This document shows positions 15,638 through 34,100 of a stretch of DNA of 45,969 nucleotides, piece after piece. Under the pieces are notes generated by a model, which worked only from the letters and a program-made list of their open reading frames with translations, did not search any database and was not told where the DNA came from. Origin of the DNA: an uncultured Bacteroidales bacterium (lineage in GTDB: Bacteria > Bacteroidota > Bacteroidia > Bacteroidales > F082); assembly GCA_900317155.1 (NCBI GenBank), contig ONFO01000026.1, positions 1 to 45,969 on the forward strand. The letters run 5' to 3'. A program made the position numbers and the translations under genes. Numbering within the stretch: position 1 is the stretch's first letter; every line of letters starts with the position of its first letter.

Positions 15638-18517
15638 TTATTTTGATATGATGAATTTCTTGGAGCTGGTGATTCCATGATGACTGAAGACCATGAGATA
15701 AATCCCATTCGGATAATTGCTTAACTTATAATAGTAAGGGTTGTTGGGCGTAGCTGAAAGTTGGAATTGATCAATAAGTAATCCTGTCATGTTGTAGATT
15801 TTGACATCTACCATTCCTGCCAAATCGTTGGTGTTGATGCGCATCTCGCCATTGTTGGGGTTGGGGATGATATCAAATGAACCAGTCGAAGTGCCGTCTT
15901 CCAGCCCATAAAATGTGCAGAGCAGCCAGAAGCGTCGTTCAATGTTGCCTTCTAAATCGCATGGACTGAATACCTTGGCCTTGAGCCAAACGGTGTCTTC
16001 CACTCGCTCGATTACGAAAACTCTGCAACAGGCATTTTTCTCACCAAAAGGATGTAATATCCAGTTGCATTTGGTTCCCAAACTCCAGGAAACAGAGTCC
16101 CATTCGTTGCCTACAATACTGTCGCTCAGCATGAAGTCATAGGAGTTAATGTTGAATTCGGTGGCTGTGATAACCAAGTGCGGGACAATATTATTGGTAT
16201 CCATAGGGAAAATAGGAGTGGGATGTGGCGATAAGCTCATGCTTAATTCGAGATGGACGATGCTGTCGCAACCCAAGGAGTTGGGGATGGTGTCGGTGTA
16301 AAAACCAGGCTGGTCATAGAAATGTCCATGCCAGAACAATCCTGTGCAACTGCCTGTCAAGGTGTCGGTGTCTCCTTCTACAATATTAGAGAGGGTCAGG
16401 TGAAGGGTGACAATACTGTCGCATCCGGAAGACGAGACGAAAGTTTGGTCATAGATTCCGTCTTCGGTATAGGTGATGTCGTTCCAGGTGTAGGATTCGG
16501 AGCACGTGATTTGCACTAGTGTGTCGGGGTTGAAAATGCGGTCGGAAACGACAAGGTGCAAATCGATAACGCTGTCGCAGCCTTGTGATGTCGGCTCACT
16601 GATTTGCTGGTCGTAAACGCCGGGGTGGTCATACACGAAACTGAAACCGTATTCATTGTAAGTCTCAGGCTCGCCTCTCCAGCATCGCGCATCGTTGTAT
16701 GAGGCATAGTACCCAGGCAGTGCGGTGACGTAAACCAACAGACTGTCTTTGCAGATGGGGTGGACAGGATTGTCAATCTCAGTTCCAAGGATGGTGTCGT
16801 TGGTGATGATAACATTGAGCCCATGGTCAGTATAAACAAAGCCTTTGCATACTTCAATCTCCTCAGTGACGAGTTTCTTTCGGGTGTCGACATAGTAGTG
16901 TGAGACGTCGTTTGCCATCGGGCCCTTGGCAGTGGCTGTGAGCACCACTTCATAGACGCGTTTTTCGGCGTATGTGTGGTTGACCGGATTCTGTGTGCTG
17001 GTTGTGCCATCACCAAAATCCCATACGATGGAGGCATTTTCCAAATTGACTTCTGCCTCGAAGGTGATGGTGGCGTCTGGACAGTATTCGTAGGTGCCCT
17101 GCTTGGGGACGAAAGTCTCGTTCATGTTGACTCTTGTGCTGAGGTCGATGGCTTTTGAGCCAACGAGATAGGCATATCCTTTGGCGATGCCGAACCCATA
17201 AACGTGGGCGTTGAAACCACCGAAGCATTCCAGATGGTGGACACCATGGGAGATGTTTTGGCGGGTGAAGCTGTAGCTATCAGTGCCGTTGACGTCTTCG
17301 AATTGGCTGGCAGGGATAAGGTTGCCGTCCAACAATACGGTGCCGACATCACTTTTGTTCACGATAATATTGACGTGGTGGGTGTCAATGTTGATGTTTT
17401 CGTTGTTGAACGTGGAGAAGGTGATTTCATCGATGCGCTGTTCGATGGGGGCAATCCAAACTACCGAAGGGTCTCCAATGGAATTGCCGCCACGGGTTGT
17501 GTTGTAAAGATACACAGCTGCAGGTCCTGAACATTCGATGAAACACGACTTTTCCGTGTTTTCCAGAGGGAAGATGTGTGATTCGTTGCTGCCAAGGGTA
17601 GCGATAAGCTCTCCATTCTTGCGTATTTCATTGTTGTCGAAGGCAGAGGTGATTTTCACGTAATCTTTTTCGCGCTCAAGAGAGCAGGTCACTACAAACT
17701 TTTTGCCCCACGACTGCAAGGGCATGGCCTGCTCGAAAATATGGTCGAAGCTGCTTCCGCTAGTGGGCACAGAAGTCAAAGTGTTGCCATTGAAGACTGC
17801 GAAGGGCTTGCTGTCGTGTGAAGTCACGCGTGAACCGCTAAGGTCGCGTTGATGGTTGTCTTGTGCATTGTCTGAACGAACTTGGTAGACTTGTCCTCTG
17901 TCCAAGTTGATGGTGAGGGTTTGGCCAGCCTGGTGACCTGAAAGGGTTTTTGCTGCTGGTGTGATGTCGATAGTGGTGCCGTCTTCGGTTGCCACAATCA
18001 GAAATGCACTGGTTTGGTTCACTTTCTGGTATTGGCTTCCTGGTGCATACGATTGGTCGTAGGTCTGGATAATGTAGTCGTCGGCTAGACTTTGTGTGGG
18101 CAACACATAAGAGGCATCGAAAGAGAGGTGGGCAATGTTGGTGCAGAAAACCGAGACTGTGTCATTGGTGACGACTTGCAATCCTCTGTTCAATACTTGT
18201 TCAGAGGTGGCATCTACATAAGCTTGGTCTTCGGGGATATTAACCGTTGTGATGTTGTTGGCTTGCACGTCGAAGGAGGTGGTCCAACCTGTATTTGGAT
18301 TGGTGATGGTGCCGTTGCAATCACGTTTCGCGCTAATGAGTAATTGGGTGAGAATCCAGTTGCCGTCATTGGGCGCTTGGGGATGGTACTTGTGGCCATT
18401 ACTCATGAAGGATACCCAAAACTCCGTACCTTGCGTGGATGCATCTTGAGCAAAGGAAGGAAAATATGTGGAAAAGAGAACCGTAAATATCAAAATGGTA
18501 AGCTTAAGCTGTTTCAT
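15638..18517 (-). CDS. IgGFc-binding-like T9SS surface protein, array member 6
   Basis: This 959-aa protein has a signal peptide 1-23 (PSFA-Q). Residues ~26-460 match the IgGFc-binding-protein N-terminal region found in bacterial surface proteins (STQGTEFWVSFMSNG, VSVFCTNIAHLSFDASYVLP, ending GFNAHVYGFGIAKGYAYLVGS). A PKD-type domain follows (~470-560, VWDFGDGTTSTQNPVNHTY), then four GCDS-type repeats (~575-760), the shared ~110-aa module (~763-876) and a T9SS sorting domain (IIPNPNNGEM, ending KKFIISK). In the shared module this copy is the most divergent: CHWDS is replaced by NEWDS. It is the last gene of the six-gene array, and no terminator hairpin is obvious after it. IgG binding is a family label, not shown for this protein. 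Confidence 0.88.
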   Translation of the reverse strand: MKQLKLTILIFTVLFSTYFPSFAQDASTQGTEFWVSFMSNGHKYHPQAPNDGNWILTQLLISAKRDCNGTITNPNTGWTTSFDVQANNITTVNIPEDQAYVDATSEQVLNRGLQVVTNDTVSVFCTNIAHLSFDASYVLPTQSLADDYIIQTYDQSYAPGSQYQKVNQTSAFLIVATEDGTTIDITPAAKTLSGHQAGQTLTINLDRGQVYQVRSDNAQDNHQRDLSGSRVTSHDSKPFAVFNGNTLTSVPTSGSSFDHIFEQAMPLQSWGKKFVVTCSLEREKDYVKITSAFDNNEIRKNGELIATLGSNESHIFPLENTEKSCFIECSGPAAVYLYNTTRGGNSIGDPSVVWIAPIEQRIDEITFSTFNNENINIDTHHVNIIVNKSDVGTVLLDGNLIPASQFEDVNGTDSYSFTRQNISHGVHHLECFGGFNAHVYGFGIAKGYAYLVGSKAIDLSTRVNMNETFVPKQGTYEYCPDATITFEAEVNLENASIVWDFGDGTTSTQNPVNHTYAEKRVYEVVLTATAKGPMANDVSHYYVDTRKKLVTEEIEVCKGFVYTDHGLNVIITNDTILGTEIDNPVHPICKDSLLVYVTALPGYYASYNDARCWRGEPETYNEYGFSFVYDHPGVYDQQISEPTSQGCDSVIDLHLVVSDRIFNPDTLVQITCSESYTWNDITYTEDGIYDQTFVSSSGCDSIVTLHLTLSNIVEGDTDTLTGSCTGLFWHGHFYDQPGFYTDTIPNSLGCDSIVHLELSMSLSPHPTPIFPMDTNNIVPHLVITATEFNINSYDFMLSDSIVGNEWDSVSWSLGTKCNWILHPFGEKNACCRVFVIERVEDTVWLKAKVFSPCDLEGNIERRFWLLCTFYGLEDGTSTGSFDIIPNPNNGEMRINTNDLAGMVDVKIYNMTGLLIDQFQLSATPNNPYYYKLSNYPNGIYLMVFSHHGITSSKKFIISK

Positions 18518-18584
18518 GGCATTAATGGTTTTAATCTATAATTATGCCGCTAAAATAAATAAAATCCATTTTCAACTTTATATT

Positions 18585-21359
18585 TTACCGAATAATTATT
18601 ACTTTTTTTGTCAAGATTGTGTTTTTGCATGAGGCAACGAACAGATAGGGCCCATCATTGGGCAATTTGCATTGGTAGGGCAGGGAATAAGTGTCAGTCT
18701 CACTGATGACCTGGAATTGGTCAATCAAACGGCCACGCATGTCGTAAACTTTGAGGTCGATTTCACCTATGAGGTTCTCAAAGTTCAGGTGCATTTGCCC
18801 ATGGTTGGGATTAGGGGTGACGGTGAAGGTTACAGAGTTTGTCGAAAGATTGTCCTCGTCCAAACCATAGAACGACGAAATGAGCCAGTAGCGTCGCTCA
18901 ACGCCTTGCAGAAAACAATTATTGAACACTTTGGCATTCAGCCAAACGGTGTCGTCCACATGGTTCAAGACATAAATCTTGCAATTCTTTCCAATGGGAT
19001 TGGTGGTCGAGTCGGGTTCAATTATCCATTGAACTTCAGGATTTTCGAAAGTCCACCTGATGGAATCCCAATGGCAAGAGCTGTTGTCGTCCCATAAGGT
19101 GAAGTCGTAGGAGCTGATGAAGAACTCGTTTGGTATTACAACCCAATGGGGAGCAGCGTTTTCTGGATCTTTAGGGTAGATTTCGGTGGGATTGGGCGTA
19201 TAGTCCAGCTCAAGGTTGAGATGGGTGATGGTGTAGCATCCTTCTTCGTTGGGAATGGTGTCGGTGTATTGCCCTGACTCGTAATAGGTCTTGCCGTGCC
19301 ATTCATAGGAATCACAATACCCACTTTCGTCTATCGGTTCCTCCTCGTTGAGGTCGCCTACTTCCAGAATAAGCTTGACCTGCCTGTCGCAACCATATTG
19401 GTTTGGACTAATGTAGAAGTCAGTGTAGTTTCCAGGTTGGTCATAATATAGGTTAAAGCCATGTTCCGTATAGGTGTCAGGACCCGTGAAGCATACATAG
19501 TCGGAGATGGTGCTGTCGCTGACAGGATAGCATGTGATGGCCACGTTGACTATGCTAATGCAGTCAGGGTTGGGGCCTGGTTGTTCGCGGCTCAAGATGG
19601 TGTCGTGCTCAATAAGGACATCGTTGAATCCGTGACCCGAATAGTGTTGTCCGGCGCAAATCTCGTCTGCGAAGTTCTGATCCTGCTCTTGCCGTGCATC
19701 AATGTAGAAGAGTGAGGCGTTGCTTGACGATGAGCCTCCGCAGGGGTTTTCTCCCGAGTTTACGGTCAGTGTGGCGGTGAAGAAATCGTTTGTCGCATAG
19801 GTGTGGACAACGGGGTTGTCGGTACTGGTGGTACCATCGCCGAAGTCCCAAAGCAAGTTGTAGTCGTTCAGGCTGATTTCGGCAGCGAAGGAGATAGGGT
19901 CAAGGGTGCAGTTGCTAATGGTGTCTTGAGGTTGGATGACGACATCGTCGATGATGAGCGTGGTGGAGAGGTCGGTAGCCTTCGATCCCACCAAATAGGC
20001 ATAACCTCTATCACTGCCAAAGCCATAAACATGAGCATTGAAGCCGTTTGGACAAGCGATATGGTGTACGTTGTGACTGATTCCCTTCCTGACGAAACTG
20101 TATTCCTCATTGCCGCTTACTCGCTCAAATTGGTTGGAAGGAATGGGAGTGTTGTCGAAGAGCACATTGTTGATGTCTTGAGTGGCGACTATGATATTGA
20201 CGTATTGGTTGTTGATGGAAGAATTATGCTCTGCGTCGCCTGAGAATGTGGTGAAGGTGACTTCGGTCATCCTTTGTTCAACGGGTGAAATCCACAGCAT
20301 GGAAGGGTCACCGTTGTGGGAAAATCCTGGGTCGTCTGAACTTGTGGTGTTAAAGAGATAAACGGCACTGGGTGCGGTGGCTTCAATATAGCATGACTTG
20401 TCGCTGGAACTGAGCTCGAAGCTGTACGATTCGTAGGCTTGCAGCGTGGCCACTTCCGTCCCGTTTTTTTTGATGGTGTTGTCGTTAGCCGAGGAGGTGA
20501 TTTTCACGAAATCGCGATGACGTGATGAGGATTGCGTTACCACGAACTTCTTTCCCCACGAACGTAACGGCATGGCCTGCTCAAAGATGTGGTCGTATCC
20601 GTTGTCAACGTCGGGAATGGTTGTGAGTGTGTTGCCGTTGAAGACGGCAATGGGCTTGCAGTCGCGTGAGGTGACGCGACTCCCGCTAAGGTCTCGCTGG
20701 TTGCCGTTTGTGGTTGAACGCACTTGGTACGACTCGCCTTTTTGCAATGTGACACTAAACTCTTCATTAGCAGGCTTTCCGCTTATCGTTTTTGCCGAAG
20801 GGGTGATATCAACGATAGTGTTATCCTCTGTAGCCACGATAAGGAAGGCACTACTAAGATAGTTTGAGATATTTTGCGCGAAATAAGAATCGTAGGAAGT
20901 GGACTGCTCATAGGTTTGTATGATATAGTCGTCAGCCAAAGCTTGGATAGGGAGGACATACGAGGCATCGAATGAGTTGGTCGCAATGTTAGTGCAATAC
21001 ACCGAGACCGTATCGGTGGTGATGATTTGTAGGCCTTTGTCGTTGGCAGTCTCGTATGCAAAGGTCTCATTATAGCCTTGAATCTCGGGGATGTCGATGG
21101 AAGTGATGTTGTTGGCCGTCACGTTGAAGTTATGACTCCAGCCGGTTTGGGGATTGCTGATGGTGCCAGAACAGTCGTGCTTCGAACTGATCATCAGTTG
21201 CGTGAGTAAATAATGCGTACTAGCATTGGTTTTGAATCCATTTCCCATGAAGGACACCCAAAACTCCTTGCCTTGGGTTGAGATTTCTTGGGCTTTACCG
21301 TTTATTGCAAAGAGGGTAAATAGGACGAAAAGTAGCGAATGTAGTTTGTTTCGTTTCAT
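18585..21359 (-). CDS. IgGFc-binding-like T9SS surface protein, array member 5
   Basis: This 924-aa protein has a signal peptide ending NGKA-Q and an IgGFc-binding-like region ~25-470 (STQGKEFWVSFMGNG, VSVYCTNIATNSFDASYVLP, CPNGFNAHVYGFGSDRGYAY). A PKD-type domain (LLWDFGDGTTSTDNPVVHTY) and three degenerate GCDS-type repeats follow. The shared module is at ~721-835 (NPTEIYPKDPENAAPHWVV to SFYGLDED), then a sorting domain (VTPNPNHGQM, ending KKVIIIR). The shared module is close at the DNA level to that of the next gene upstream (19018-19096 against 21843-21920). It lies 67 nt upstream of the 15638 gene and 61 nt downstream of the 21421 gene, so co-transcription is likely. It is presumably on the cell surface; the ligand is unknown. 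Confidence 0.88.
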   Translation of the reverse strand: MKRNKLHSLLFVLFTLFAINGKAQEISTQGKEFWVSFMGNGFKTNASTHYLLTQLMISSKHDCSGTISNPQTGWSHNFNVTANNITSIDIPEIQGYNETFAYETANDKGLQIITTDTVSVYCTNIATNSFDASYVLPIQALADDYIIQTYEQSTSYDSYFAQNISNYLSSAFLIVATEDNTIVDITPSAKTISGKPANEEFSVTLQKGESYQVRSTTNGNQRDLSGSRVTSRDCKPIAVFNGNTLTTIPDVDNGYDHIFEQAMPLRSWGKKFVVTQSSSRHRDFVKITSSANDNTIKKNGTEVATLQAYESYSFELSSSDKSCYIEATAPSAVYLFNTTSSDDPGFSHNGDPSMLWISPVEQRMTEVTFTTFSGDAEHNSSINNQYVNIIVATQDINNVLFDNTPIPSNQFERVSGNEEYSFVRKGISHNVHHIACPNGFNAHVYGFGSDRGYAYLVGSKATDLSTTLIIDDVVIQPQDTISNCTLDPISFAAEISLNDYNLLWDFGDGTTSTDNPVVHTYATNDFFTATLTVNSGENPCGGSSSSNASLFYIDARQEQDQNFADEICAGQHYSGHGFNDVLIEHDTILSREQPGPNPDCISIVNVAITCYPVSDSTISDYVCFTGPDTYTEHGFNLYYDQPGNYTDFYISPNQYGCDRQVKLILEVGDLNEEEPIDESGYCDSYEWHGKTYYESGQYTDTIPNEEGCYTITHLNLELDYTPNPTEIYPKDPENAAPHWVVIPNEFFISSYDFTLWDDNSSCHWDSIRWTFENPEVQWIIEPDSTTNPIGKNCKIYVLNHVDDTVWLNAKVFNNCFLQGVERRYWLISSFYGLDEDNLSTNSVTFTVTPNPNHGQMHLNFENLIGEIDLKVYDMRGRLIDQFQVISETDTYSLPYQCKLPNDGPYLFVASCKNTILTKKVIIIR

Positions 21360-21420
21360 GGCAGAAGGGTTTAGCTATTATTAATTAGGTGCAGCCCTCG
21401 ACTATGGAATAACAGACTTT

Positions 21421-24400
21421 TTAGTTTATGACGATTTTTTTGCTAATAGTGCCTCCTTTGCTAGTGACGATGAAACAATATATGCCTTTTACCGGGGTCT
21501 TGAACTGGTATGGCATCTCGGAATCAGTGGCTTGGAACTGGTCGATAAGTATGCCTCGCATGTCGTAAACCCTCACTTCGAGATGGTCTGTGAAGTTGTT
21601 AAATGACAAGAGCATTTGACCATTGTTGGGATTGGGTACGACATCGAAGTCCACGTCTCCAGGACCTATCGAAGGATTGTCCTCGTCCAAACCATAGAAC
21701 GAGCAGATGAACCAATAGCGGCGCTCAATGCCTTGCGGATGGCATTTGTTGTAGACTTTGGCACTCAGCCAAACGGTGTCGTCCACTTTGTTCAAGACAT
21801 AAATCTTGCAGTTTTTTCCAACAGGAATTGTGGTCGAGTCAGGTTCAATTATCCATTGAACCTCAGGGTTTTCGAAAGTCCACCTGATGGAATCCCAATG
21901 GCAAGAGCTGTTGTTGTCCCAGAAAGTGAAGTCATAGGAGTTGATTTGGAATTCAGTCGCCGTCACTACCCAATGGGGTGCAGTGTTTTCGGGATCTTTG
22001 GGGTAGATGTCGGTGGGGTTAGGTGTATATTCCAAGTCGAGGTCGAGGTAAATGGTACTGTCGCAGCCCAAGGCAGTCGACAGGGTCTTTTGATAGAAGC
22101 CCGAAGTGGTATAGTCTGTGTCAATCCAATGGTAGGAGTTACATTCTGATACATTGATGGTAGTGCCTTCCACATTGCCTGAGAGAGTCAGATGACAGTC
22201 AACGATGCTGTCGCAACCATCGTATGTGGTAAACTGCTGTTGATAGGTACCGGTCTGTGAATAGTCTTGTCCGTTCCAATGGAAAACTCCACAAGTGATG
22301 GTGTCGAAGCTGGTGTATTGCGGATGTCCCATGGTGAGATGCAAGGTGACGATGCTGTCGCAACCACCTTGCGAGGTGTAATAACGCTCATAATCACCCG
22401 AAGTGGAATAGGTTTGCCCGTCCCAGATATAGCCGTTACCGCATTCGTGGTGGTCGAATTCATAGGTGATTTGGTCGGCTACCGTTAGGTGCAGGTTGAT
22501 GATGCTGTCGCAGCCGTTGGCGGTCATCAGGCTAAGTTGCTGGTCGTAGGTGCCAGGATGGTCATATTGGAAACTGAAGCCATGGTCGTCATAGAACCCG
22601 GGTTGGCCTTGCCAGCAGCGGCTGTCGTTGATGGGAATGTGGTAGTTCTGGTGTGCGGTGATGTAAACGAGGAGCGAGTCTTTGCATTCGCTGTGGACTG
22701 GGTTGTCTTGCAAACGGGCCAAAATCGTGTCGTTGTTGATAAGTATGTTGCTGAAACCGTACCCTGAGTAAAGCTCGCCAGCGCAAGTTTGATCATTCTC
22801 GGTGACGTATTGTTGTCTGGTGTCCACGAAAAAGTGTGTGGTGTTGCTTGACGATCCTGAGCATCCGCCTTCAATATTGGTAATCACCAAGGAGACATTG
22901 TAGATGCGCCTTTCATTAAAGGTATGTGTCACCTGGTTGGAGTTGCTGGTGGTGCCGTCGTCAAAATCCCAAACGAGCTCATAGTCTGGTATATTGACTT
23001 CCACATTGAAGAGGATGGGTGAGTCGACGCAATAGAGGAAGGTCTCGTCAGGGAGCATCACTTCGTCATTAAGTGTCAGGCTGGTGCTCAAGTTGATGGC
23101 ATTGGAGCCGACTAGGTAGGCATATCCTTTGGCTTGGCCGAAACCATACACATGGGCGTTGAAGCCATTGGGGCAGGTGATGTGATGCACGCCATGGGAG
23201 ATGTCCATGCGTACGAAGCTGTAATCACTGTTGCCTTGAACACGGTTAAACAGCAGTGGCGAGATTTGGTTGCCATCAAAATACACCTGAGCGATATCTT
23301 CAGTGTTAACGATAATGTTGACACTGTGGATTTCAATGTTGATGTCGGGGTGGTCGAAAGTGGAGAAGGTCACGTCGCTGATTCGTTGCTCCACGGGTGC
23401 AATCCATACCATCGAAGGGTCGCCCAATCCACCTAGCCAGTTTTGGTCGTAGCTCGAGTTGTTGAACAGGTAGACGGCACAAGGTTGGGTGGCTTCAAGA
23501 AAACACGAGCCTTCCGTCTCAAGCATTGAGAAGGTGTACGACTGTCCTGCCCTCAAATTAACAAGAGGCTCTCCGTTCATGGTGATATCATTGTCATTGG
23601 CACTCGAAGTGATTTTGATGAAGTCGCGGTTGCGGTTACGCGAGCTGGTCACTACGAAGTTTTTGCCCCACGAGTGTAAAGGCATGGCTTGCTCGAACAC
23701 ATGGTCTAATCCATTGCCTTGGTTGGTAGGGATGCAGGTGAGGGTGTTGCCATTGAAGACGGCGATGCGCTTGCAGTCGCTTGACAGGATCTTTGTTCCA
23801 CTGAGGTCACGCAGGCTGCCCGTTCTCATCGACCTGACATGATAGGTCTCCCCGGCATTCATCGTGATGGTGAAGGTTTGTCCGGCTTCATGCCCGCCTA
23901 AAGTGGCGACGGAAGGGGTAATGTCAATTTCAGTATTGTCTTCTGTGGCTACGATGAGGAAAGCACTGGTCTCATTGTTGTAAGCATAGGGGTTGGAGTT
24001 GGGTGAAATGGACTGGTCGTAGGTTTGGATGATGTATTCGTCCCCCAAGCTCTCGGTAGGCAATACAAACGAGGCGTCGAAGGAAACATTGGCAATATTG
24101 GTACAATAGACCGAGATGGTGTCGTTGGCTTCCACCTTGATGCCTTTTTGCGTGATGGTTTCATAAGTGTATTGGTCGTGATAGCCTTGCTCCTCTGGGA
24201 TTTCCACAGTGGTAATGTTGTTGGCTCTGACGGTAAAGTCTCGTGACCATCCTGTCAAGGGGTTGGTGACGGTGCCGCTACAGTCACGTTTGGCGCTGAT
24301 GAGCACTTGGTTGATGATCCAACCGCCTTCAGGGTGATCTCTGAACCCATTGTGCATAAACGACAGCCAAAACTCCTTTCCTTGGGTGGATGTGTTCTGC

Positions 24401-24468
24401 GCCATCGTGTTAGGGGTGCAGAACACAACCAAAAAACAAATAACCAAAATCGTATTAAGGCGCTTCAT
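21421..24468 (-). CDS. IgGFc-binding-like T9SS surface protein, array member 4
   Basis: The protein has 1015 aa. I chose the Met at 24468 (MKRLNTILVICFLVVFC, signal peptide to TMA-Q) because the longer frame from 24504 adds 12 polar residues before the signal and overlaps the preceding gene. The IgGFc-binding-like region is ~25-465. A PKD-type domain (LVWDFDDGTTSNSNQVTHTF) is followed by five GCDS-type repeats, the most among the three IgGFc members (GCDSIINLHLTV, GCDSIVTLHLTM, GCDSIVDCHLTL, GCDSTIYLDLDL and an ECKDS form). The shared module is at ~814-929, then a sorting domain (VVPNPNNGQM, ending KKIVIN). It lies 19 nt after the stop of the 24488 gene, the tightest spacing in the array, and marks the junction between the two front-end types. 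Confidence 0.88.
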   Translation of the reverse strand: MKRLNTILVICFLVVFCTPNTMAQNTSTQGKEFWLSFMHNGFRDHPEGGWIINQVLISAKRDCSGTVTNPLTGWSRDFTVRANNITTVEIPEEQGYHDQYTYETITQKGIKVEANDTISVYCTNIANVSFDASFVLPTESLGDEYIIQTYDQSISPNSNPYAYNNETSAFLIVATEDNTEIDITPSVATLGGHEAGQTFTITMNAGETYHVRSMRTGSLRDLSGTKILSSDCKRIAVFNGNTLTCIPTNQGNGLDHVFEQAMPLHSWGKNFVVTSSRNRNRDFIKITSSANDNDITMNGEPLVNLRAGQSYTFSMLETEGSCFLEATQPCAVYLFNNSSYDQNWLGGLGDPSMVWIAPVEQRISDVTFSTFDHPDINIEIHSVNIIVNTEDIAQVYFDGNQISPLLFNRVQGNSDYSFVRMDISHGVHHITCPNGFNAHVYGFGQAKGYAYLVGSNAINLSTSLTLNDEVMLPDETFLYCVDSPILFNVEVNIPDYELVWDFDDGTTSNSNQVTHTFNERRIYNVSLVITNIEGGCSGSSSNTTHFFVDTRQQYVTENDQTCAGELYSGYGFSNILINNDTILARLQDNPVHSECKDSLLVYITAHQNYHIPINDSRCWQGQPGFYDDHGFSFQYDHPGTYDQQLSLMTANGCDSIINLHLTVADQITYEFDHHECGNGYIWDGQTYSTSGDYERYYTSQGGCDSIVTLHLTMGHPQYTSFDTITCGVFHWNGQDYSQTGTYQQQFTTYDGCDSIVDCHLTLSGNVEGTTINVSECNSYHWIDTDYTTSGFYQKTLSTALGCDSTIYLDLDLEYTPNPTDIYPKDPENTAPHWVVTATEFQINSYDFTFWDNNSSCHWDSIRWTFENPEVQWIIEPDSTTIPVGKNCKIYVLNKVDDTVWLSAKVYNKCHPQGIERRYWFICSFYGLDEDNPSIGPGDVDFDVVPNPNNGQMLLSFNNFTDHLEVRVYDMRGILIDQFQATDSEMPYQFKTPVKGIYCFIVTSKGGTISKKIVIN

Positions 24469-24487
24469 AATCGTTGTAGGATAGATG

Positions 24488-27391
24488 TTATCTTTCGATG
24501 ACAACCTTTTTAGCCAAGGTGCCTTCCTTGCATGTGACGACGAAGAGATAAATACCGCTCCTCGTGGTCTTCATGTCATAATTAAATAAGGTGTTGCCGT
24601 TATAGGTCTCGAAATTGTCGATAAGTGTGCCTTTCATGTCGTACACCTTGACGTCAACCTTGCCACTGATGCGGTCAAAAAGAAGTTGCATTTGCCCGTT
24701 GTTGGGATTTGGAATAACATCGAAGGTCGCTGAGTTTGTCGAAGCAACGTCTTCCTCGATTCCGTAGAAAGAACATACGAACCAATAACGCTGAATGATG
24801 CCTTGTGGTGCGCAACGGTTAAAAGCGTGGGCTTCTAACCAGACAGTGTCATCCACTTGGTCCATGACATACACCTTGCAACATGAGCTTCTATCGCCGA
24901 AAGGCTCGAGCAGCCAATCAATGGGCTCGGCAAAGTTCCACGTGACGGTGTCCCAATGACAGTAGGGATTGGTGTCCCAAAGATGGAAGTCGTAGGAGTT
25001 GATTTGGAACTCTGTTGCGGTGATTACCCAGTGCGGTGTAGTGTTGTCGGGATCCATCGGATAGATTTCGGTCGGTACTGGAGTGTATTCAAAATGGACA
25101 TTCATCGTGACTAAACTGTCGCAACCCAACTGGTTTTTGTAAGTCCGATGATAGCTGCCCGACTGGTTGTAAACAAGACTCTCGTGGTCGGTGTAAACAA
25201 TTTCATGTCCTTCGGGATCCCAATAGTATTCATCACAGTTCTCTTCGTCGCTAACGGTAAATTCATACTCGTTAAGTGGGTTGACTGAGAGGTGGAGGTA
25301 TATGACGCTGTCGCAGCCATGGATGGTCTGGAGGGTATGGTTGTACACGCCAGCTACGTTTAGGTTTTGACCGAAGAAGTTGTAGGATTCATTCTCGCAA
25401 ATCGACTCGTATAGACTTGACTCTTCTTTGGGATGCACGAGGATGGTCACGCTGACTTCCAGGTCTGTCATGCCGTCGCTCACGATGCAGGTGAAAGTGG
25501 TGGTTCCTAAAGGTGGCGTGGCCACTGGGTTCTGTATTGTGGCGTTGTTGAGCAGGTTGGCAGGCGACCAAATGTAGGTGTAGTTGCCAGTGCCAGCCAT
25601 AGGCAGGGCATGGAGTGTCGTTGAGCTGTTTTCGCAAATCTCATATTGGTCGGCAGTGGCGGTAGCGGTCAAGTCGGAGCCAGCCATGTTGACGGTCACT
25701 TGAATCGTGTTGCTGCAGCCACCCAATTCGTTGGTGACGGTCACGGTGAAAACCTGTGACGTTGTGAGGGGAACGGTTTGGGTTGTCTGACTGTTAGGGT
25801 TGGTCACCATGTTGGCTGGTTCCCAATGATAGCTGTAGTTGCCTGCTGGTACCGCATTGACGGTAAGTGTGGCCGTGCCGCCATAAATGACGGAGGAGGG
25901 ACTGGCGGAAATCGTCAGTTGTGGAATGGCATAGACGGATACAGTCTTAGTTATTTCATCAATGCAATGTCCATTGCCTGTATGCACTATGTGAGTCACT
26001 TGATAGTCACCTGGCGAGGCGTATGTGTGGGTCACGTTTGGCTCGTCAGCTGTTTCTCCGTCTCCAAAGTCCCAATGATAGCCGGTGATTTCCTGCCCTG
26101 AGGGGTCAGTGTCGGCTGTGCTGTTCAGTTGGGTAGCACTGCCTTCGCAAACATTGTTGAAGCTGAAGTCGGCAATGGGCTGGGCATATACGATGACTTC
26201 GGTGGAGCCAGTCGTGGTTTGGCCATCAACGGTGGTGACACAGGTGTAGATACCGCCCATCTCGAAGGTGCAGTTGGGGATAGTGGGGTTTTGCTCGTTC
26301 GAGGTGAAGTTGTCAGGTCCAGTCCAACTGTAGGTAGCACCTGCTTGGGTAGTGATCGATAGTTGGATGGTATCGCCAACGCAATAAGGGCCACTATTTG
26401 TAGCGATACCAGGAAGGATGCCGCAGTCTGTCGTGCCAGGACCAGAACCTTCTGTCTTGGTGAAGGTGATGATGCAGGGGTCACGCGAATAATTGGTAAT
26501 CAGTAGGATATAATATTCGCCTACTTCTGGTGTGTGCTCGATGATGCTACCATGTGAGGTGTTATGGTAGTGCTCACTTTCTGGATACCCCAAAAAAATG
26601 TTTTCCGTATAACTGGAGGAATAACAACAGTCAATGATTTTGTTGGAAGTCAATTCTTGGACGCATGGTGTGACAGGGTCGTCAAAAGGTCCCCAAATGA
26701 TAAAGTCGATGTCTCTTTCAATGCTTGGGTCGATGGGGTCGACGCCTTCCATGTGGATGATGAACTGTCCACCCGTATTGATTCTCATGTGATACCAAGA
26801 AGGGTTGTAGGAATTGCCGATGCAACCGATGTCAGGGATGCCGGCTTCTGCTTGTTGGGTGCTGTGTGAGGCCTCAAACTGGATGATGTCAGAAGTGCAG
26901 AAAGGATCGGAATTCACACAAAAGTCGTTGTCAGTGATGGCTCTGTTGAGGGCTATATCCATAGTGATTGAGGCGAAATACCTTGGAGTGACGCTCGCTT
27001 TCCATTGGGACTCCAAATCAAAAATGTCTTTTTTCTCAATTAATCTGAAGTTGATGGAGGTCTCGTTGTAGAACGACTCAAAACTGTCAAAGAAGCCGTT
27101 TTCCATGTAATCTTCAGTTGGGTTGACGATGAACAATCCATATTCGTCTTCCGCATTTATCGAGAACCTATCGTCTTTGCTGAGATTATACAGAAGGTAT
27201 AACCTGAAGTCGATGTTGTCAATCTCGAAAAAATTGAGGATTATGCCATCTTCGGCATATTGTCTGTACGGCGTTTGTTCATGCCCCGATGGAATGGATA
27301 CCTTGACAGGTTGCGATGGTTGTGCTTGGAGCATGAATGGCAATAACAGGAAAAAGAAGCCTGAAACGATTAGTTTTAGTTGGTTATTCAT
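24488..27391 (-). CDS. Ig/PKD-repeat T9SS surface protein, array member 3
   Basis: This 967-aa protein has a signal peptide ending MLQA-Q. A poorly conserved N-terminal region (~25-170) is followed by the Cys-rich front domain that begins VNSDPFCTSD and includes DIGCIGNSYNPSWYHMRI, DIDFIIWGPFDDP and GEYYILLITNYS (~175-345). An Ig-like domain (GPYCVGDTIQLS, YSWTGPDNF), one PKD domain (YHWDFGDGETADEPNVTHTY) and two further Ig-like repeats follow. Only two GCDS-type repeats are present, then the shared module (~770-879; here with DRSSCCKVYVMD) and a sorting domain (VIPNPNNGQM, ending KKVVIER). It is the shortest of the three Ig/PKD members. It lies 36 nt after the 27428 gene and 19 nt before member 4, and is presumed to be co-transcribed with both. 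The function is unknown; the architecture fits an extracellular binding protein. Confidence 0.87.
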   Translation of the reverse strand: MNNQLKLIVSGFFFLLLPFMLQAQPSQPVKVSIPSGHEQTPYRQYAEDGIILNFFEIDNIDFRLYLLYNLSKDDRFSINAEDEYGLFIVNPTEDYMENGFFDSFESFYNETSINFRLIEKKDIFDLESQWKASVTPRYFASITMDIALNRAITDNDFCVNSDPFCTSDIIQFEASHSTQQAEAGIPDIGCIGNSYNPSWYHMRINTGGQFIIHMEGVDPIDPSIERDIDFIIWGPFDDPVTPCVQELTSNKIIDCCYSSSYTENIFLGYPESEHYHNTSHGSIIEHTPEVGEYYILLITNYSRDPCIITFTKTEGSGPGTTDCGILPGIATNSGPYCVGDTIQLSITTQAGATYSWTGPDNFTSNEQNPTIPNCTFEMGGIYTCVTTVDGQTTTGSTEVIVYAQPIADFSFNNVCEGSATQLNSTADTDPSGQEITGYHWDFGDGETADEPNVTHTYASPGDYQVTHIVHTGNGHCIDEITKTVSVYAIPQLTISASPSSVIYGGTATLTVNAVPAGNYSYHWEPANMVTNPNSQTTQTVPLTTSQVFTVTVTNELGGCSNTIQVTVNMAGSDLTATATADQYEICENSSTTLHALPMAGTGNYTYIWSPANLLNNATIQNPVATPPLGTTTFTCIVSDGMTDLEVSVTILVHPKEESSLYESICENESYNFFGQNLNVAGVYNHTLQTIHGCDSVIYLHLSVNPLNEYEFTVSDEENCDEYYWDPEGHEIVYTDHESLVYNQSGSYHRTYKNQLGCDSLVTMNVHFEYTPVPTEIYPMDPDNTTPHWVITATEFQINSYDFHLWDTNPYCHWDTVTWNFAEPIDWLLEPFGDRSSCCKVYVMDQVDDTVWLEAHAFNRCAPQGIIQRYWFVCSFYGIEEDVASTNSATFDVIPNPNNGQMQLLFDRISGKVDVKVYDMKGTLIDNFETYNGNTLFNYDMKTTRSGIYLFVVTCKEGTLAKKVVIER

Positions 27392-27427
27392 AGTTATAAA
27401 AATTGTAAAAATGTAAGTTTTGTTGCG

Positions 27428-30400
27428 CTATCTTTGTATGACGACCTTCTTCGCTATGGTGCCTTCCTTGCTGGTGGCAACGAAGAAATAGATACCGTCT
27501 GTCTTGTTTTTCATGTGATAAAGGTATGTGTTGGGACCATTGCTACTGAACGTCTCAAACTGGTCGATGAGTGTACCCTTCATGTCGTACACTCTCACGT
27601 TGACTTTGCCAGTGAGGTACTCAAAGTTGAGTTGCATCTCTCCGTTATTGGGGTTGGGGATAATGTCGAAATCAATGGCCGTTGAGCTTGTTGAAGCATC
27701 ATTCTCGTCGATGCCGATAAATGAGCTGAGGAACCAGTAGCGCTGTGTGACGCCCTCTTGAGGTGCGCAACGGTTGAAGGCATGGGCTTCCAACCAAATG
27801 GTGTCTTCCACCCAGCTGAGTACATACATTTTGCAGCATTGGTTATTGGTGCCAAAAGGTTCAAGCAACCAATCCACAGGCCTGGTGAAGTTCCAAGTGA
27901 CGGAATCCCAATGGCAGTTCGGGTTGGTGTCCCACATGTTGAAGTCGTAGGAGTTGATTTGGAATTCAGTGGCCGTAATCACCCAGTGGGGAGCACCGAT
28001 AGTGGCATCCATGGGATAGATTTCGGTGGGATGAGGTGTATAGGCGAAATCCACGTTCATGGTCACCAGACTGTCGCAGTCGGATTGGTTCTTATAGGTG
28101 CGGTGATAGGTTCCTGACATGGTGTAAATTGGGTCTTCATGGTCAGTATAAAGAATCTCGTGGCCCTGAGGATCCCAGAAATACTCGTCGCAGTTCTCTT
28201 CATCGCTGACGGTGAAAACATACTCGTCATGGTCGTTGATGGTCAGATAGAGTGTGGCTTCGCTGTCGCAGCCATAACTGTTGATATAGTGATGTGTATA
28301 GACCGTGTTTTCGTTGAAGGTCATGTCAACATTATAAGCGTCGTTTTTCCAGCGATAGGCATCGCAGCTGGTGACAACGACATCATTTTGGAAGCTCGGT
28401 CTCAGTTCAAGGTATAAAACGAGCGTGCTGTCGCAAGAGTTGGGATAAGACAAGGTGTCATAATAGGTTCCTGATTCATAATAGGTTATGCCGTTTGAAG
28501 CCCAAGTATATTCTTCAGCGCAGAGGGAGACACTGTAACTCTTCGAGTTGTATTCGGCTTCCTCAATATGAAGGTTTACGATGCTGTCGCAGCCCAAAGC
28601 GGATTCAAACACATAAACGTATGGATAGGGACTAGGTTGCAGATAATCACCGTTGTAATAATAGCCTTGACCACCTTCACAAGTAGATTCGTAGAAGTTG
28701 AACTCATAAATGGGGTCTTGGATGAGGTTGAGTCTGATGATGCTGTCACAACCGTGAACCGATTGCAAAGTGTGGTAATAGGTGCCCGCAGCGTCAAGGG
28801 CTTGGTCGAAGAACATGTAATGTTCGCCTTCGCAGAAACGGTCGGTGATGGGGGTCTCGTAAGTCTGCCAGTTGCTCAGATGCAGGTGGATGACGCTGTC
28901 GCAACCGTATTGTGTCTCAATAGTGTGGTCATATACACCGGGGGTCTGTAGCATTTCTCCAAAGAAGCTGTAAGTGCTGTTTTCGCAGATGGTTTCGTAC
29001 ACATCGGCTTCTTCGTTAGGATGCACCACGATGGTGACACTGACATCTTGGGCACTGAGACCATCACTGACATGACATGAATATGTCGTCGTTCCTACAG
29101 GTGGTGTGGCCACTGGGCTTTGAATGTTGGCGTTGTTAAGTGTGTTGGCGGGCGTCCAACTGTAGGTGTAGTTGCCAGTGCCGCCTGAAGGTTGGGCATG
29201 CAACGTGGTTGACTCGCCTTCGCAAAGCGAGGTCTGGTCGGCGGTGGCCATGGCCACCATGTTGGAGCCTTCGATGCTCACCGTTACTTGTGCTGAGGCG
29301 GTGCAGTCGCCTTGAGGATTGGTGACGGTGACGGTGTATGTCTGTGTGGCTTGGAGCGAAACGGTTTGTGTGGTCTGTGAATTGGGGCTGACCACCATAT
29401 TGGCGGGCTCCCAATGGAAGTTGAAGGAGCCCGTGGCTCCAGCATTGGCGGTAAGGGTGGAAGTGCCGCCGTAAATGACGGTACTGGGTTGCGCCGTGGC
29501 AGAGGGAACGGGAGAGGCATATACGGGCACGGTTTGGGTGATTTGCCCATTGCAGTCACCACCACCGACACCCACAGTGTGGGTCACTTGATAGTCGCCA
29601 GCTTGTGCATAGGTGTGGCTCACGGTCTGCCCTGAACCGGTTTGTCCGTCACCGAAATTCCATTGGTAACTGGTGATCTGTTGTCCGTTGGGTGCTGTGG
29701 CTGTGCTTGTGAATTGGGTTGGGTTGCCTTTGCAGACCGAGGTGTAGGTGAAGTTCGAGGTGGGCTGGCCATAAACGGTAACGGTCTTGGTGATTTGGTC
29801 GGTGCAGTGCCCGTTGCCGTTCGAGACGGTAAGCGTAACTTGGTAGGTGCCGGGTTGCGCATAGGTGTGGCTTACGTTTTGTCCTGTCCCAGTTTGTCCA
29901 TCGCCAAAATTCCATTGGTAGCTTTCGATTTGCTGTCCACTAGGGTTAGTGGTGGAGGTGCTGGTGAATTGGGTAGGGTTGCCTTGGCAAACTGTCGTGA
30001 AATTGAAATCGGCAGTGGGGTCAGGATAGATGATGACTTCGGTAGAGGCAGTAACGGATTGATTACCCACGGTTGTTGTGCAGGTATAAGTGCCAGCCAT
30101 GTTTAAGGTGCAGTTGGGGCGGGTTGGGTTCTGTTGATTGGAGGTGAAGCCAGCAGGTCCTGTCCAAGAGTATGTTGCACCATCTTGCGCGTTGACGTCC
30201 AAATAAATAGTCTCTCCAACACAATAGGGACCGGTATTACTGGCAACGCCAGGTAAAATGCCGCAGTCAGTCTCGCCGGGACCGCTACCTGGAACTTTAG
30301 AGAAAGTGATATTGGTGGATCCAGAAGAATACTTTGTAATCACCATAATATAATACTGACCTACTTGTGAGTTGGATGGAATAGTGCATTCTTGAACTGA

Positions 30401-31123
30401 ATTGTACGGTGAGTCGCAGTCAATGATTTTGTCTGAAGTGAGTTGGTAAGGGCATGGGGTGACAGGGTCATTAAAAGGGCCCCATGCACAAAAATCCAAG
30501 TCATTGTTGTTGCTGTTGGTGATCTGGATCGTGAAAGTCCCGGCAACGGCAATTTTCATGTGAAACCAAAAAGGTGGTCTCTGTGTAAAGGAAGACATGC
30601 AACCGTAGTTGGGACCAGGTTCACAAACAGACGGGTTGTCTTCAACGTGGAAGGTGACGATGTCGGTGGTGCAGAATGGGTCTGATTCGGCGCAGGTCTG
30701 GTTTCCATCCCTGCTGTTTGGGTTCTCGATAAGCAACTGCCTGAAAAGCAACACAAAAAGTTCTTGTGACAGGCTTTCTTTCCAATAGGTGAAAGTGGCT
30801 CCTTGTGTCTCTTTGTCTGCGTTAGTATAAGCGTTAAAGCTTTCAGTGGCCGTAGCTCTCAATTCATTGAAATAGGCTTGGAATTGTTGGTCATCAAAAT
30901 TAGCCGTTGATGACAATAATAACGAACTCTCTTCTTCATTGATGACGTACGAAATGTTTTCGTCATTAGCGATATAGGAAATCAAACAGTAACGAAAGTC
31001 GGGATTGCTGATGGTAGACAGCTCAATCTCAATGGTGTGGTTTCTTACGGTTTGTCCAAATTGTCGTATGGGCATGGCTATCAGCATCAATGCAATCCAT
31101 AATAGTTTGATTTTCTTATTCAT
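27428..31123 (-). CDS. Ig/PKD-repeat T9SS surface protein, array member 2
   Basis: This 1231-aa protein has a start MNKKIKLLWIALMLIAMP with signal cleavage near FGQ. The front domain has CAESDPFCTTD, PNYGCMSSFTQ, DLDFCAWGPFNDP and GQYYIMVITKYS. An Ig-like domain (YSWTGPAGF), two PKD domains (YQWNFGDGQTGTGQNVSHTY and YQWNFGDGQTGSGQTVSHTY) and two further Ig-like repeats follow. Six GCDS-type repeats lead into the shared module (~1029-1139) and a sorting domain (IIPNPNNGEM, ending KKVVIQR). The second PKD domain is an extra copy that its neighbour lacks, a sign of internal duplication. A 60-bp run in the shared module is identical to one in the 31177 gene, so the two are recent duplicates or undergo conversion. 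Confidence 0.88.
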   Translation of the reverse strand: MNKKIKLLWIALMLIAMPIRQFGQTVRNHTIEIELSTISNPDFRYCLISYIANDENISYVINEEESSLLLSSTANFDDQQFQAYFNELRATATESFNAYTNADKETQGATFTYWKESLSQELFVLLFRQLLIENPNSRDGNQTCAESDPFCTTDIVTFHVEDNPSVCEPGPNYGCMSSFTQRPPFWFHMKIAVAGTFTIQITNSNNNDLDFCAWGPFNDPVTPCPYQLTSDKIIDCDSPYNSVQECTIPSNSQVGQYYIMVITKYSSGSTNITFSKVPGSGPGETDCGILPGVASNTGPYCVGETIYLDVNAQDGATYSWTGPAGFTSNQQNPTRPNCTLNMAGTYTCTTTVGNQSVTASTEVIIYPDPTADFNFTTVCQGNPTQFTSTSTTNPSGQQIESYQWNFGDGQTGTGQNVSHTYAQPGTYQVTLTVSNGNGHCTDQITKTVTVYGQPTSNFTYTSVCKGNPTQFTSTATAPNGQQITSYQWNFGDGQTGSGQTVSHTYAQAGDYQVTHTVGVGGGDCNGQITQTVPVYASPVPSATAQPSTVIYGGTSTLTANAGATGSFNFHWEPANMVVSPNSQTTQTVSLQATQTYTVTVTNPQGDCTASAQVTVSIEGSNMVAMATADQTSLCEGESTTLHAQPSGGTGNYTYSWTPANTLNNANIQSPVATPPVGTTTYSCHVSDGLSAQDVSVTIVVHPNEEADVYETICENSTYSFFGEMLQTPGVYDHTIETQYGCDSVIHLHLSNWQTYETPITDRFCEGEHYMFFDQALDAAGTYYHTLQSVHGCDSIIRLNLIQDPIYEFNFYESTCEGGQGYYYNGDYLQPSPYPYVYVFESALGCDSIVNLHIEEAEYNSKSYSVSLCAEEYTWASNGITYYESGTYYDTLSYPNSCDSTLVLYLELRPSFQNDVVVTSCDAYRWKNDAYNVDMTFNENTVYTHHYINSYGCDSEATLYLTINDHDEYVFTVSDEENCDEYFWDPQGHEILYTDHEDPIYTMSGTYHRTYKNQSDCDSLVTMNVDFAYTPHPTEIYPMDATIGAPHWVITATEFQINSYDFNMWDTNPNCHWDSVTWNFTRPVDWLLEPFGTNNQCCKMYVLSWVEDTIWLEAHAFNRCAPQEGVTQRYWFLSSFIGIDENDASTSSTAIDFDIIPNPNNGEMQLNFEYLTGKVNVRVYDMKGTLIDQFETFSSNGPNTYLYHMKNKTDGIYFFVATSKEGTIAKKVVIQR
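27822..27881. repeat. 60-bp segment identical to 31568-31627
   Basis: The 60 bases here and at 31568-31627 are the same, inside the shared module of neighbouring array genes. Flanking sequence over roughly 200 bp is also nearly identical with scattered differences, many at third codon positions. This points to recent duplication or gene conversion. Confidence 0.85.
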
Positions 31124-31176
31124 ATTGGATCTGTATTAAGGTGTTTGTTATGTTATTATGTCTTAGTACGTTTGAT

Positions 31177-34100
31177 TTATTTTTGTATGACGACCTTCTT
31201 CGCGATAGTGCCTTCCTTGTTAGTGGCGACGAAGAAATAAATACCATCTGACTTGGCCTTCATATTGTAGTCAAATGTTCCTGAACCGTTGTTGTAGGTC
31301 TCAAACTGGTCGATGAGTGTGCCTCTCATGTCGTACACCTTGATGTCGACTTTTCCGGTGAGGCGCTCAAGGTTGAGTTGCATCTTGCCATTGTTGGGGT
31401 TGGGGATGACATCGAAATCAATGGCCGTTGAACCTGCTGGAGTATCATTCTCGTCGATGCCGATAAATGAGCTGAGGAACCAATAGCGCTGTGTGACGCC
31501 CTCTTGTGGTGCGCAACGGTTGAAGGCATGGGCTTCCAACCAGATGGTGTCTTCTACCCAGCTGAGCACATACATTTTGCAGCATTGGTTATTGGTGCCA
31601 AAAGGTTCAAGCAACCAATCCACAGGCTTGGTAAAGTTCCAAGTGACGGAATCCCAATGGCAGTTCGGGTTGTCGTCCCAAAGGTTGAAGTCGTAGGAGT
31701 TGATTTGGAACTCAGTGGCCGTGATCACCCAATGTGGAGCGTAGTTGGTGGCGTCCATGGGGAAGATTTCGGTGGGATGTGGCGTGTACTCGAATTGCAC
31801 ATTCATGGTCACCAAACTGTCGCAGTCATGGCTATTTTTGTATGTGCGATGGTAGGTGCCTGACATGTTATACTCCAAGTCTTCGTGGTCGGTGTAGAGT
31901 ATCTCATGCCCTTGTGGGTCCCAATAGTAGCTGTCGCAGTTCTCCTCATTGCTGACGGTGAAAACATACTCATCGTGGTCGTTGATGGTCAGATAAAGCG
32001 TGGCTTCGCTGTCGCAACCATAGTCATTGACATAATGATGCGTATAGACTGTGCTTTCGTCGAAGGTCATGTCCACATTGTAGATGTCGTTCTTCCAACG
32101 GTAACTGTCGCAACTGGTTTCATGCACTTCAATGTCATAACTTGGTCTGAGCTCAAGGTTGAGGACGAGGGTGCTGTCGCATGCGTTGGGAAAGGAAAGT
32201 GTGTCGTAAAAGGTACCCGTTTCGTAATAGGTCCTGCCGTTTGAGGGCCATGTGTATTCTGTGGCACATAAGGAAACATTGTAGGTCTTGGAGTTGTATT
32301 CCGCTTCCTCAACGGTGAGGTAGACGACGCTGTCGCAGCCCTGAACGGTTTCAAAGACGAATGCGTTGGGGTAGGGGCTGGGCGGAAGATAGATGTCCAA
32401 TGGGGCGAAGTAGTAGCCAGGCCCGCCTTGGCAAGTCGATTCCCACAATTCAACCTCATAGGCGGGGTCTTGAATCAGGTTGAGTTTGATGACGCTGTCG
32501 CAGCCATGTGCCGATTCTAAGGTATGGTAATAGATGCCAGATGTGCTGATGGCTTGGTCATAGAACATGTAGTGCTCACCTTGGCAGAAATGGTCGGTGA
32601 TGGGGGTCTCATAGGTGTCCCAGTTGTAAAGGTGCAAACGGATGAGCTTGTCGCAGCCAAACTCGGTTTGTGTGTGGTGTTCATAAACGCCTGGGGTCTG
32701 GACGTTTTCTCCATAGAAGTCATAAATGTCATTTTCACAGATGGTATGCTCCACTTCTTCCACTTCATTGGGATGCACCATGATGGTCACGCTGACGTTT
32801 TGGTTGGTGATGCCGTCGCTGACCGCGCAGGTGTAGGTGGTTTCGCCAACGGGCGGTGTGGCCACAGGATTCTGGATAGTGGCGTTGCTCAAGGTGTTGG
32901 CGGGAGTCCAGTTGAAAGTGTAGTTGCCTGTTCCGCCTGAGGGTTGTGCATGCAGTGTGGTCGACTCGCCTTCGCAGAGCTCATACTGGTCGGCGGAAGC
33001 CATGGCGGTCATGTTGGAGCCTTCCATGCTCACAGTGACTTGTGCCGTGCTGCTGCAGCCACCTTGTGGGTTGGTGACAGTGACGGTATAAGTCTGAGTG
33101 GCTTGTAACGGCACGGTCTGAGTGGTCTGTGCATTGGCATTGACTACCATGTTGGCGGGTTCCCAATGGAAGTTGAAGGTTCCAGTGGCACCAGCGTTGG
33201 CCGTAAGTGTGGCGGTGCCGCCATAGATGACGGTGCTGGGTTGGGCAGTGGCTGAGGCCACTGGTGCTGCATAGACGGGCACGGTCTGGGTCTTTGAGCT
33301 GGTGCAGTGACCGTTACCTGTGGTCACATTGAGCGTCACCTGATAGTTGCCCGCTTGGGCGTAGGTGTGTGTGACGTTTTGCCCCGTTCCAGTCTGTCCG
33401 TCACCAAAAGTCCATTGGTAGCTTTGAATTTGCTGGCCGCTGGGGTTGGTGGTTGAGGTGCTAGTGAATTGCGTAGGCGTCCCTTTACAAACCGAGGTGT
33501 AGTTGAAGTTGGCCGTGGGTTGGGGATAGATGACCACTTCAGTGGTGGCGCTGTTCGATGCGGTGCCAACAGTGATGGTGCAAGTATAGGTGCCAGCCAT
33601 GGCCATGGTGCAGTTCGGGCGGGTTGGGTTTTGCTGGTTTGAGGAGAAGTTGCCAGGACCAGTCCAACTATAGGTGGCTCCTGCTTGGCCTTGAGCCGAC
33701 AGATGAATGGTCTCGCCCACGCAATAAGGGCCTTCGTTGTTGACCAAAGGAGGCAGGATGCCACAGTCGGTCTCGCCATCACCAGCGTATTTTTGGAAAG
33801 TGATGTTGCCGCTGCCTCCGTTATAGTTGGTGATAAGGAGAATATAGTATTGTCCTACTTGTCCATTAACCACGTGAGCATATTCGTAGGCTTGTGCACT
33901 GAAACTACAGTCATGAAGGTTACCTGATGGATAGAAATTGGGGTTTGAGGTGTTGTTAGGACAACTGGTGCAATTCGAAGTCAGCAAACCTGTTTGACCT
34001 GCTGCTGTCGGACAAGGAGTGGTCTGATCGGTAAAAGGCCCCCAAAGCGCAAAGTCAATGTCGAAGGGCGCTTCCATCTTGATGGTGATGTTACCGGCAA

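Follow-up and report, generated by a model that had tools for sequence, protein, structure and literature searches.

A module ahead of the sorting domain in type IX secretion cargo of Bacteroidales, and its candidate outer-membrane partners

We analysed contig ONFO01000026.1 of an uncultured Bacteroidales bacterium (assembly GCA_900317155.1); the whole stretch of 45,969 nucleotides is called here the window. It contains six tandem open reading frames (ORFs) on the minus strand (15638-34701), each encoding one copy of a module of about 110 amino acids just before a type A C-terminal sorting domain (CTD), by which the type IX secretion system (T9SS) would export these proteins. The module recurs beside genes for a lipoprotein and an outer-membrane barrel, is of a single type in nearly all genomes where this could be assessed, and co-varies with the lipoprotein at loci of one cargo class. 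We propose that it may be a membrane-proximal docking domain matched to this pair.

The array and its cargo

The six copies align with a mean column identity of 71% and 35 invariant columns. Their positions (Table 1) are within six bases of those given in an initial annotation of the window, which had also placed the module directly before the sorting domain in each protein. Behind the module remain 85-91 amino acids, and these are a type A CTD: all six pass the cut-off of TIGR04183 and five of the six that of PF18962 (Por_Secre_tail), where P0002 reaches 23.1 of 27 bits. The CTD has the seven-strand sandwich of T9SS type A cargo. The N-termini of the cargo are hydrophobic, as read from the translations, and the translocon protein SprA is present in the genome. 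P0001 is followed by the genes of the lipoprotein P0013 and then of the barrel P0012.

Table 1. Features of the array, in window coordinates.
Feature	Coordinates	Strand	Description
Cargo P0001	15638..18517	-	IgGFc_binding front end, PKD, module, type A CTD
Cargo P0002	18585..21359	-	IgGFc_binding front end, PKD, module, CTD
Cargo P0003	21421..24468	-	IgGFc_binding front end, PKD, module, CTD; first ATG 24468, listed TTG start 24504
Cargo P0004	24488..27391	-	Class 1 front end without Pfam name, Ig_2/PKD_4, module, CTD
Cargo P0005	27428..31123	-	Class 1 front end, PKD_4, repeat stalk, module, CTD
Cargo P0006	31177..34701	-	Class 1 front end, PKD_4, repeat stalk, module, CTD
Module copy 1	15896..16231	-	In P0001, 959 aa
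Module copy 2	18855..19199	-	In P0002, 924 aa
Module copy 3	21682..22026	-	In P0003
Module copy 4	24752..25084	-	In P0004, 967 aa; copy used for structure prediction
Module copy 5	27704..28039	-	In P0005, 1231 aa
Module copy 6	31450..31785	-	In P0006, 1174 aa
Lipoprotein P0013	14659..15510	-	Lipobox-like Cys then M-K-N-D; candidate partner
Outer-membrane beta-barrel P0012	13696..14631	-	PF13568, E 1.3e-9; candidate partner

Distribution, position and front ends

The module is not specific to the six proteins that it had been thought to define, since we gathered 168 distinct copies, divergent ones included, from 37 genomes (two further profile matches without a CTD-sized tail were left out). 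A profile of the six copies had 13 matches in the window's genome, a likeness far beyond chance: ten of them reach E ≤ 1.7e-54, and the E-values of the other three are 7.5e-9 to 4.2e-8. It matched 22 of 60 genomes, its own included (21 of 36 within the genus and one of 24 outside). When the order was sampled more widely, 4 of 295 genomes had matches at E ≤ 1e-5; they belong to the window's genus and a single further family. The named loci from the GTDB scan belong to metagenome-assembled genomes (MAGs) of Bacteroidales/Bacteroidia, one of them labelled Prevotella, and are from herbivore gut wherever a source is stated. The viral contigs searched for the module gave no match.

The position of the module is nearly constant. 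It lies 78-93 amino acids from the C-terminus in 114 of 115 ORF matches, a set in which some genes recur through overlapping loci, and the remaining one is cut by a contig end. In a second set the distance is 78-94 amino acids in 145 of 149 cases, and the four exceptions are ORFs that are cut or have a broken frame. The front ends are diverse: clustering the first 320 residues of 133 full-length proteins by BLAST gave seven classes, two of which are single proteins. These classes include IgGFc_binding and choice_anch_L (the latter from one scanned member). The initial annotation was right that front ends without detectable relationship share the module, but counted two kinds instead of seven; its idea of a general job behind several front ends is supported. 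The class 1 family, to which the N-terminal 330 or so amino acids of P0004-P0006 belong (window 24488-34701), has 43 full-length members, and this part of the three proteins has no Pfam match over the cut-off.

Fold and kinship of the module

The AlphaFold model of copy 4 has a pLDDT (predicted local distance difference test) of 91 and matches immunoglobulin-like (Ig-like) domains, with a beta-sandwich of about seven strands. The model places a linker with pLDDT below 50 between module and CTD; the module is therefore a domain separate from the CTD, and the idea that it might be a mere extension of the sorting domain is ruled out. The compact domain first suggested is in line with this model, and its conserved cysteines are found in nearly all copies (Cys69 in 162 of 168, Cys91 in 168 of 168); this pair could form the disulfide suggested at first. 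A novel fold, which had also been envisaged, is not supported, as the model resembles Ig-like domains.

Neither Pfam nor NCBIfam has a domain over its cut-off at the module in the window proteins. PKD_6 (PF19408), tested with its curated cut-off, had no match in these six proteins and one among 77 module members, at E 5.7e-4; together with aBig_2 (0.0019) this was the best Pfam match to these members, none being over the cut-off. The PDB had no match for the module by sequence. Our literature searches found no paper on the module or the operon, which is no proof of absence. In a comparison of profiles, hhalign gave 91.5/86.2% between the module and PKD_6 domains that precede a CTD, as against at most 1.4% for module-side controls and at most 11.6% for 40 shuffles. 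The same PKD_6 pre-CTD profile gives 45% to the CTD profile (it includes the first residues of the CTD) and 21% to internal PKD_6. From its model and profile we class the module as Ig-like and place it on a divergent branch of the PKD_6-like domains that precede a CTD. Domains of this kind are known; the variant and its setting seem to be new.

Lipoprotein and barrel genes accompany the module

The gene order module cargo, lipoprotein, barrel is recurrent. Both partner genes were found in 57 of 74 clusters, whereas 14 had only cargo despite at least 1.5 kb of available sequence and three had less room (L049, L065 and L183, the last of which overlaps L043). In some arrays the pair is followed by additional cargo or occurs more than once. 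None of 20 module-free CTD loci had either the lipoprotein or the barrel gene (high-scoring listed matches, in genomes of the genus), and 2 of 22 PKD_6 pre-CTD loci had the pair within the roughly 1.2 kb of following sequence that was covered. Another kind of array (L045, G000:C27:100000-116000) has divergent modules and its own lipoprotein/barrel pairs, in the order module, module, lipoprotein, barrel, module, lipoprotein, barrel.

Nearly all lipoproteins (58 of 59) have a lipobox-like Cys, which is followed by Lys at +3 in 54 and by acid residues at +4 to +6 (at least one in 50, two in 32). By its residues, this start resembles a known surface-export signal. For the family scans we took matches above E 0.001 as chance. 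The 13 scanned lipoproteins have no Pfam family common to all, and two match Flg_new_2 (best 3.9e-6). Twelve of 13 barrels match PF13568; in NCBIfam four match TDE1717 barrels and one matches PorT/SprT (E 1.2e-4), and the families listed at E ≤ 0.1 do not include PorP/SprF.

One module type per genome

Clustering put 125 of the 168 modules into three main types: 75 are of type H, 43 of type F and 7 of type Y. Types were first set by motif, and on that basis 14 of 15 genomes were uniform, the exception being G032. With types set by clustering, 22 of the 23 genomes having at least two main-type modules carry a single type, across front ends and loci. The sole mixed genome, G347 (L282; four H, one F), has a listed contamination of 6%. 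Modules of different types are 25-43% identical between proteins with alike front ends, e.g., 31-38% where the fronts are 83-92% identical; the 93/93 comparison in this analysis follows in part from the definition of the types.

The type does not follow the species tree as given by gyrB (8 changes against 8.9 when shuffled). Even genome pairs with gyrB at least 99% alike share the type in only 6 of 21 cases and differ in 15. PorU1 was considered as a type-matching partner and rejected: types interleave on its tree with slight clustering only (6 changes where shuffling gives 8.6; 5 of 200 shuffles had as few), and supported branches require at least five changes for H and at least four for F. 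PorU-like proteins (NF033707) have two matches in each of 21 genomes, encoded by adjacent genes in 20 (a tandem sortase pair, e.g., G000:C44:101896-108674, minus strand); in G016 the pair is on two contig ends. Regarding front ends, type is unrelated to the class 1 tree (12 changes, shuffled mean 12.1) and clustered on the class 0 tree, with 6 changes where shuffling gives 15.4 (5 and 12.9 for H, 4 and 6.6 for F).

One pair of loci was compared at the DNA level, L052 (in G021) and L055 (in G016). The downstream flank of the array is 93-95% identical beside unlike modules; the upstream flank (75.8%) and front-end matches are at 71-80%, and the stalk-module parts have no match. On this comparison, the array looks like an exchanged locus.

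Co-variation of the module with its neighbours

Across 59 triples of module, lipoprotein and barrel, module distance correlated with lipoprotein distance at 0.63 and with barrel distance at 0.58 (Mantel). The correlation is not module-specific, because the front end behaves likewise (0.60 with the lipoprotein, 0.67 with the barrel). The loci of class-2 cargo tell more, because there the types do not differ in front end, CTD, gyrB or PorU1. This test was picked after the data were seen and covers the 13 operons with class-2 cargo beside the lipoprotein (that of G000 is outside it because another cargo separates it from the lipoprotein). Lipoproteins differed by module type by 14.5 points, a value reached in 1 of 6435 relabelings, and barrels slightly, by 5.2 points (p 0.006). 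There was no difference by type in the front end (p 0.94), the CTD (p 0.22), gyrB or PorU1. As the CTD lies between module and lipoprotein, a single exchanged tract would hardly yield such a pattern.

A candidate docking domain

We give a probability of roughly 45% to the reading that the module, beside the ordinary role of a pre-CTD domain, is a membrane-proximal domain for docking on the lipoprotein and barrel, to which it is matched. It would close the mature part of T9SS type A cargo, folding independently ahead of the flexible linker. If the CTD is cut at this linker, as in Porphyromonas gingivalis, the module would become the C-terminal, membrane-proximal domain of the protein. It could then dock at the outer membrane on an acceptor of its own, in which the lipoprotein (P0013 family) would join with the beta-barrel (P0012 family) from the neighbouring gene, and one kind of base would display different front ends. 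A genome would retain one type because cargo from every locus, also from those without a local pair, must fit the resident acceptors. Docking to a common partner was among the jobs initially suggested for the module; gene neighbourhood and co-variation speak for it as a possibility, and from them we infer the binding itself.

A real possibility is that the module is a usual pre-CTD Ig-like domain that has no specific partner and, like that of gingipains, stabilises folding and acts as a spacer in T9SS export; the types would then reflect drift, and the lipoprotein and barrel would serve another job. The model and location of the module fit this. The immunoglobulin superfamily (IgSF) domain of RgpB is described in a passage of PMC4804311 as a possible spacer or insulator, and part of PMC11285876 reports that changing RgpB A719, which contacts the upstream domain, abolished export. 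This explanation leaves without a cause the linkage to lipoprotein and barrel genes (57 of 74 clusters against 0 of 20 loci), the single type per genome across front ends and loci, and the co-variation of module and lipoprotein, in which neither CTD nor front end takes part.

A slightly less likely possibility is that the uniformity of types is due to concerted evolution, i.e., to recombination copying the C-terminal half among paralogs, partner fit being unnecessary. The process itself seems to be at work at least in part. Homologs of different type have alike fronts, and their identity decays through the stalk into the module. Same-type paralogs with different front ends are slightly closer when they share a genome (H 0.606, F 0.556) than when they come from different ones (H 0.582, F 0.502; 0 of 1000 permutations for each type). 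In the window, P0005 and P0006 agree at 34 of 41 fourfold sites of the module and at 16 of 36 and 25 of 56 of those in front and stalk, but also at 19 of 27 in the CTD; for P0002 and P0003 the module has 22 of 35, as against 28 of 77, 4 of 15 and 5 of 12 in front, stalk and CTD. Identity peaks at the module in both pairs (copies 5 and 6; copies 2 and 3), fourfold sites included, and these local peaks suggest gene conversion. Recent gene conversion was rejected as a general cause, as only the two window pairs show such signs. Fourfold sites of paralogous modules are just 43-47% alike overall, so that most homogenisation would be old, whereas 15 of the 21 genome pairs with near-identical gyrB differ in type. 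Nor does concerted evolution predict joint variation of module and lipoprotein when the CTD between them does not vary along with them.

That misbinned or chimeric MAGs make the types appear independent of the species tree is very unlikely, even if the named relatives are MAGs and the single mixed genome has a listed contamination of 6%, since misbinning would mix types within bins that are uniform in 22 of 23 cases, types interleave on the gyrB as well as the PorU1 tree, and the arrays of G021 and G016 combine nearly identical downstream DNA with unlike modules and a 75.8% upstream flank.

The docking domain could have a further, more doubtful property, that of a typed plug. Each genome would have one compatibility class (H, F or Y), worn by all module cargo whatever the front end or locus and read by the cognate lipoprotein and barrel; front ends could spread between species but would be displayed only on the resident plug. 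If true, T9SS type A cargo would have a system for display at the surface that is modular and based on protein. Type A cargo of P. gingivalis is retained at the surface by a covalent link to anionic lipopolysaccharide (A-LPS). A lipoprotein/barrel acceptor that reads a pre-CTD domain would, if true, be another retention route, and would provide these gut Bacteroidales with a plug-and-socket surface on which binding heads vary and the base is constant. Under any mechanism, a single type per genome that switches among close relatives is a testable puzzle, and the operon and the module typing are the aspects that deserve follow-up.

Comparison with known systems

PKD_6 is among the closest known systems. 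We examined 32 PKD_6 matches (29 in the window's genus and three in other genera of the order), 23 of which end at most 110 amino acids from the C-terminus with a CTD after them. Besides this location, the profile kinship of 91.5% unites them with the module. In contrast, the module has its own motifs, its window copies fall below the PKD_6 model, and the lipoprotein/barrel pair is rare at PKD_6 pre-CTD loci. On either side of the array the window encodes a large C25 (gingipain-like) peptidase that has a propeptide and a CTD (34740-39521 and 8682-13568, minus strand), and the pre-CTD region of these peptidases gives 96.8% with the PKD_6 pre-CTD profile.

Ig-like domains ahead of the CTD of known T9SS cargo are believed, in a passage of PMC7712824, to stabilise the protein. 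Gingipains (RgpB, Kgp) and PPAD are described in part of PMC4804311 as having an Ig-like domain, an unstructured linker and then an Ig-like CTD. The module has the same place, the same fold class and the same succession of linker and CTD. It differs from the gingipain IgSF domain in that we found no sequence match between them, and in standing behind several unlike front ends with a lipoprotein and a barrel gene nearby; the structural matches listed for the module include no gingipain chain. Sato, in 2018, reportedly dealt with Ig-like domains and cargo stability.

For type B cargo, passages of PMC9143113 describe anchoring by PorP/SprF barrels, plus PorE in P. gingivalis, and an sprF gene that adjoins sprB. 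The PorE-PorP-PG1035 and SprF-SprB systems resemble the one proposed here in combining a secreted surface protein with an outer-membrane barrel, plus a lipoprotein in the case of PorP. At the module loci the barrel belongs to PF13568, with no match to PorP/SprF, and the lipoprotein has a surface-export-like start and no family-wide Pfam match; the partnership itself is deduced from the genes. The cargo differs as well: its CTDs match the models of type A, not type B.
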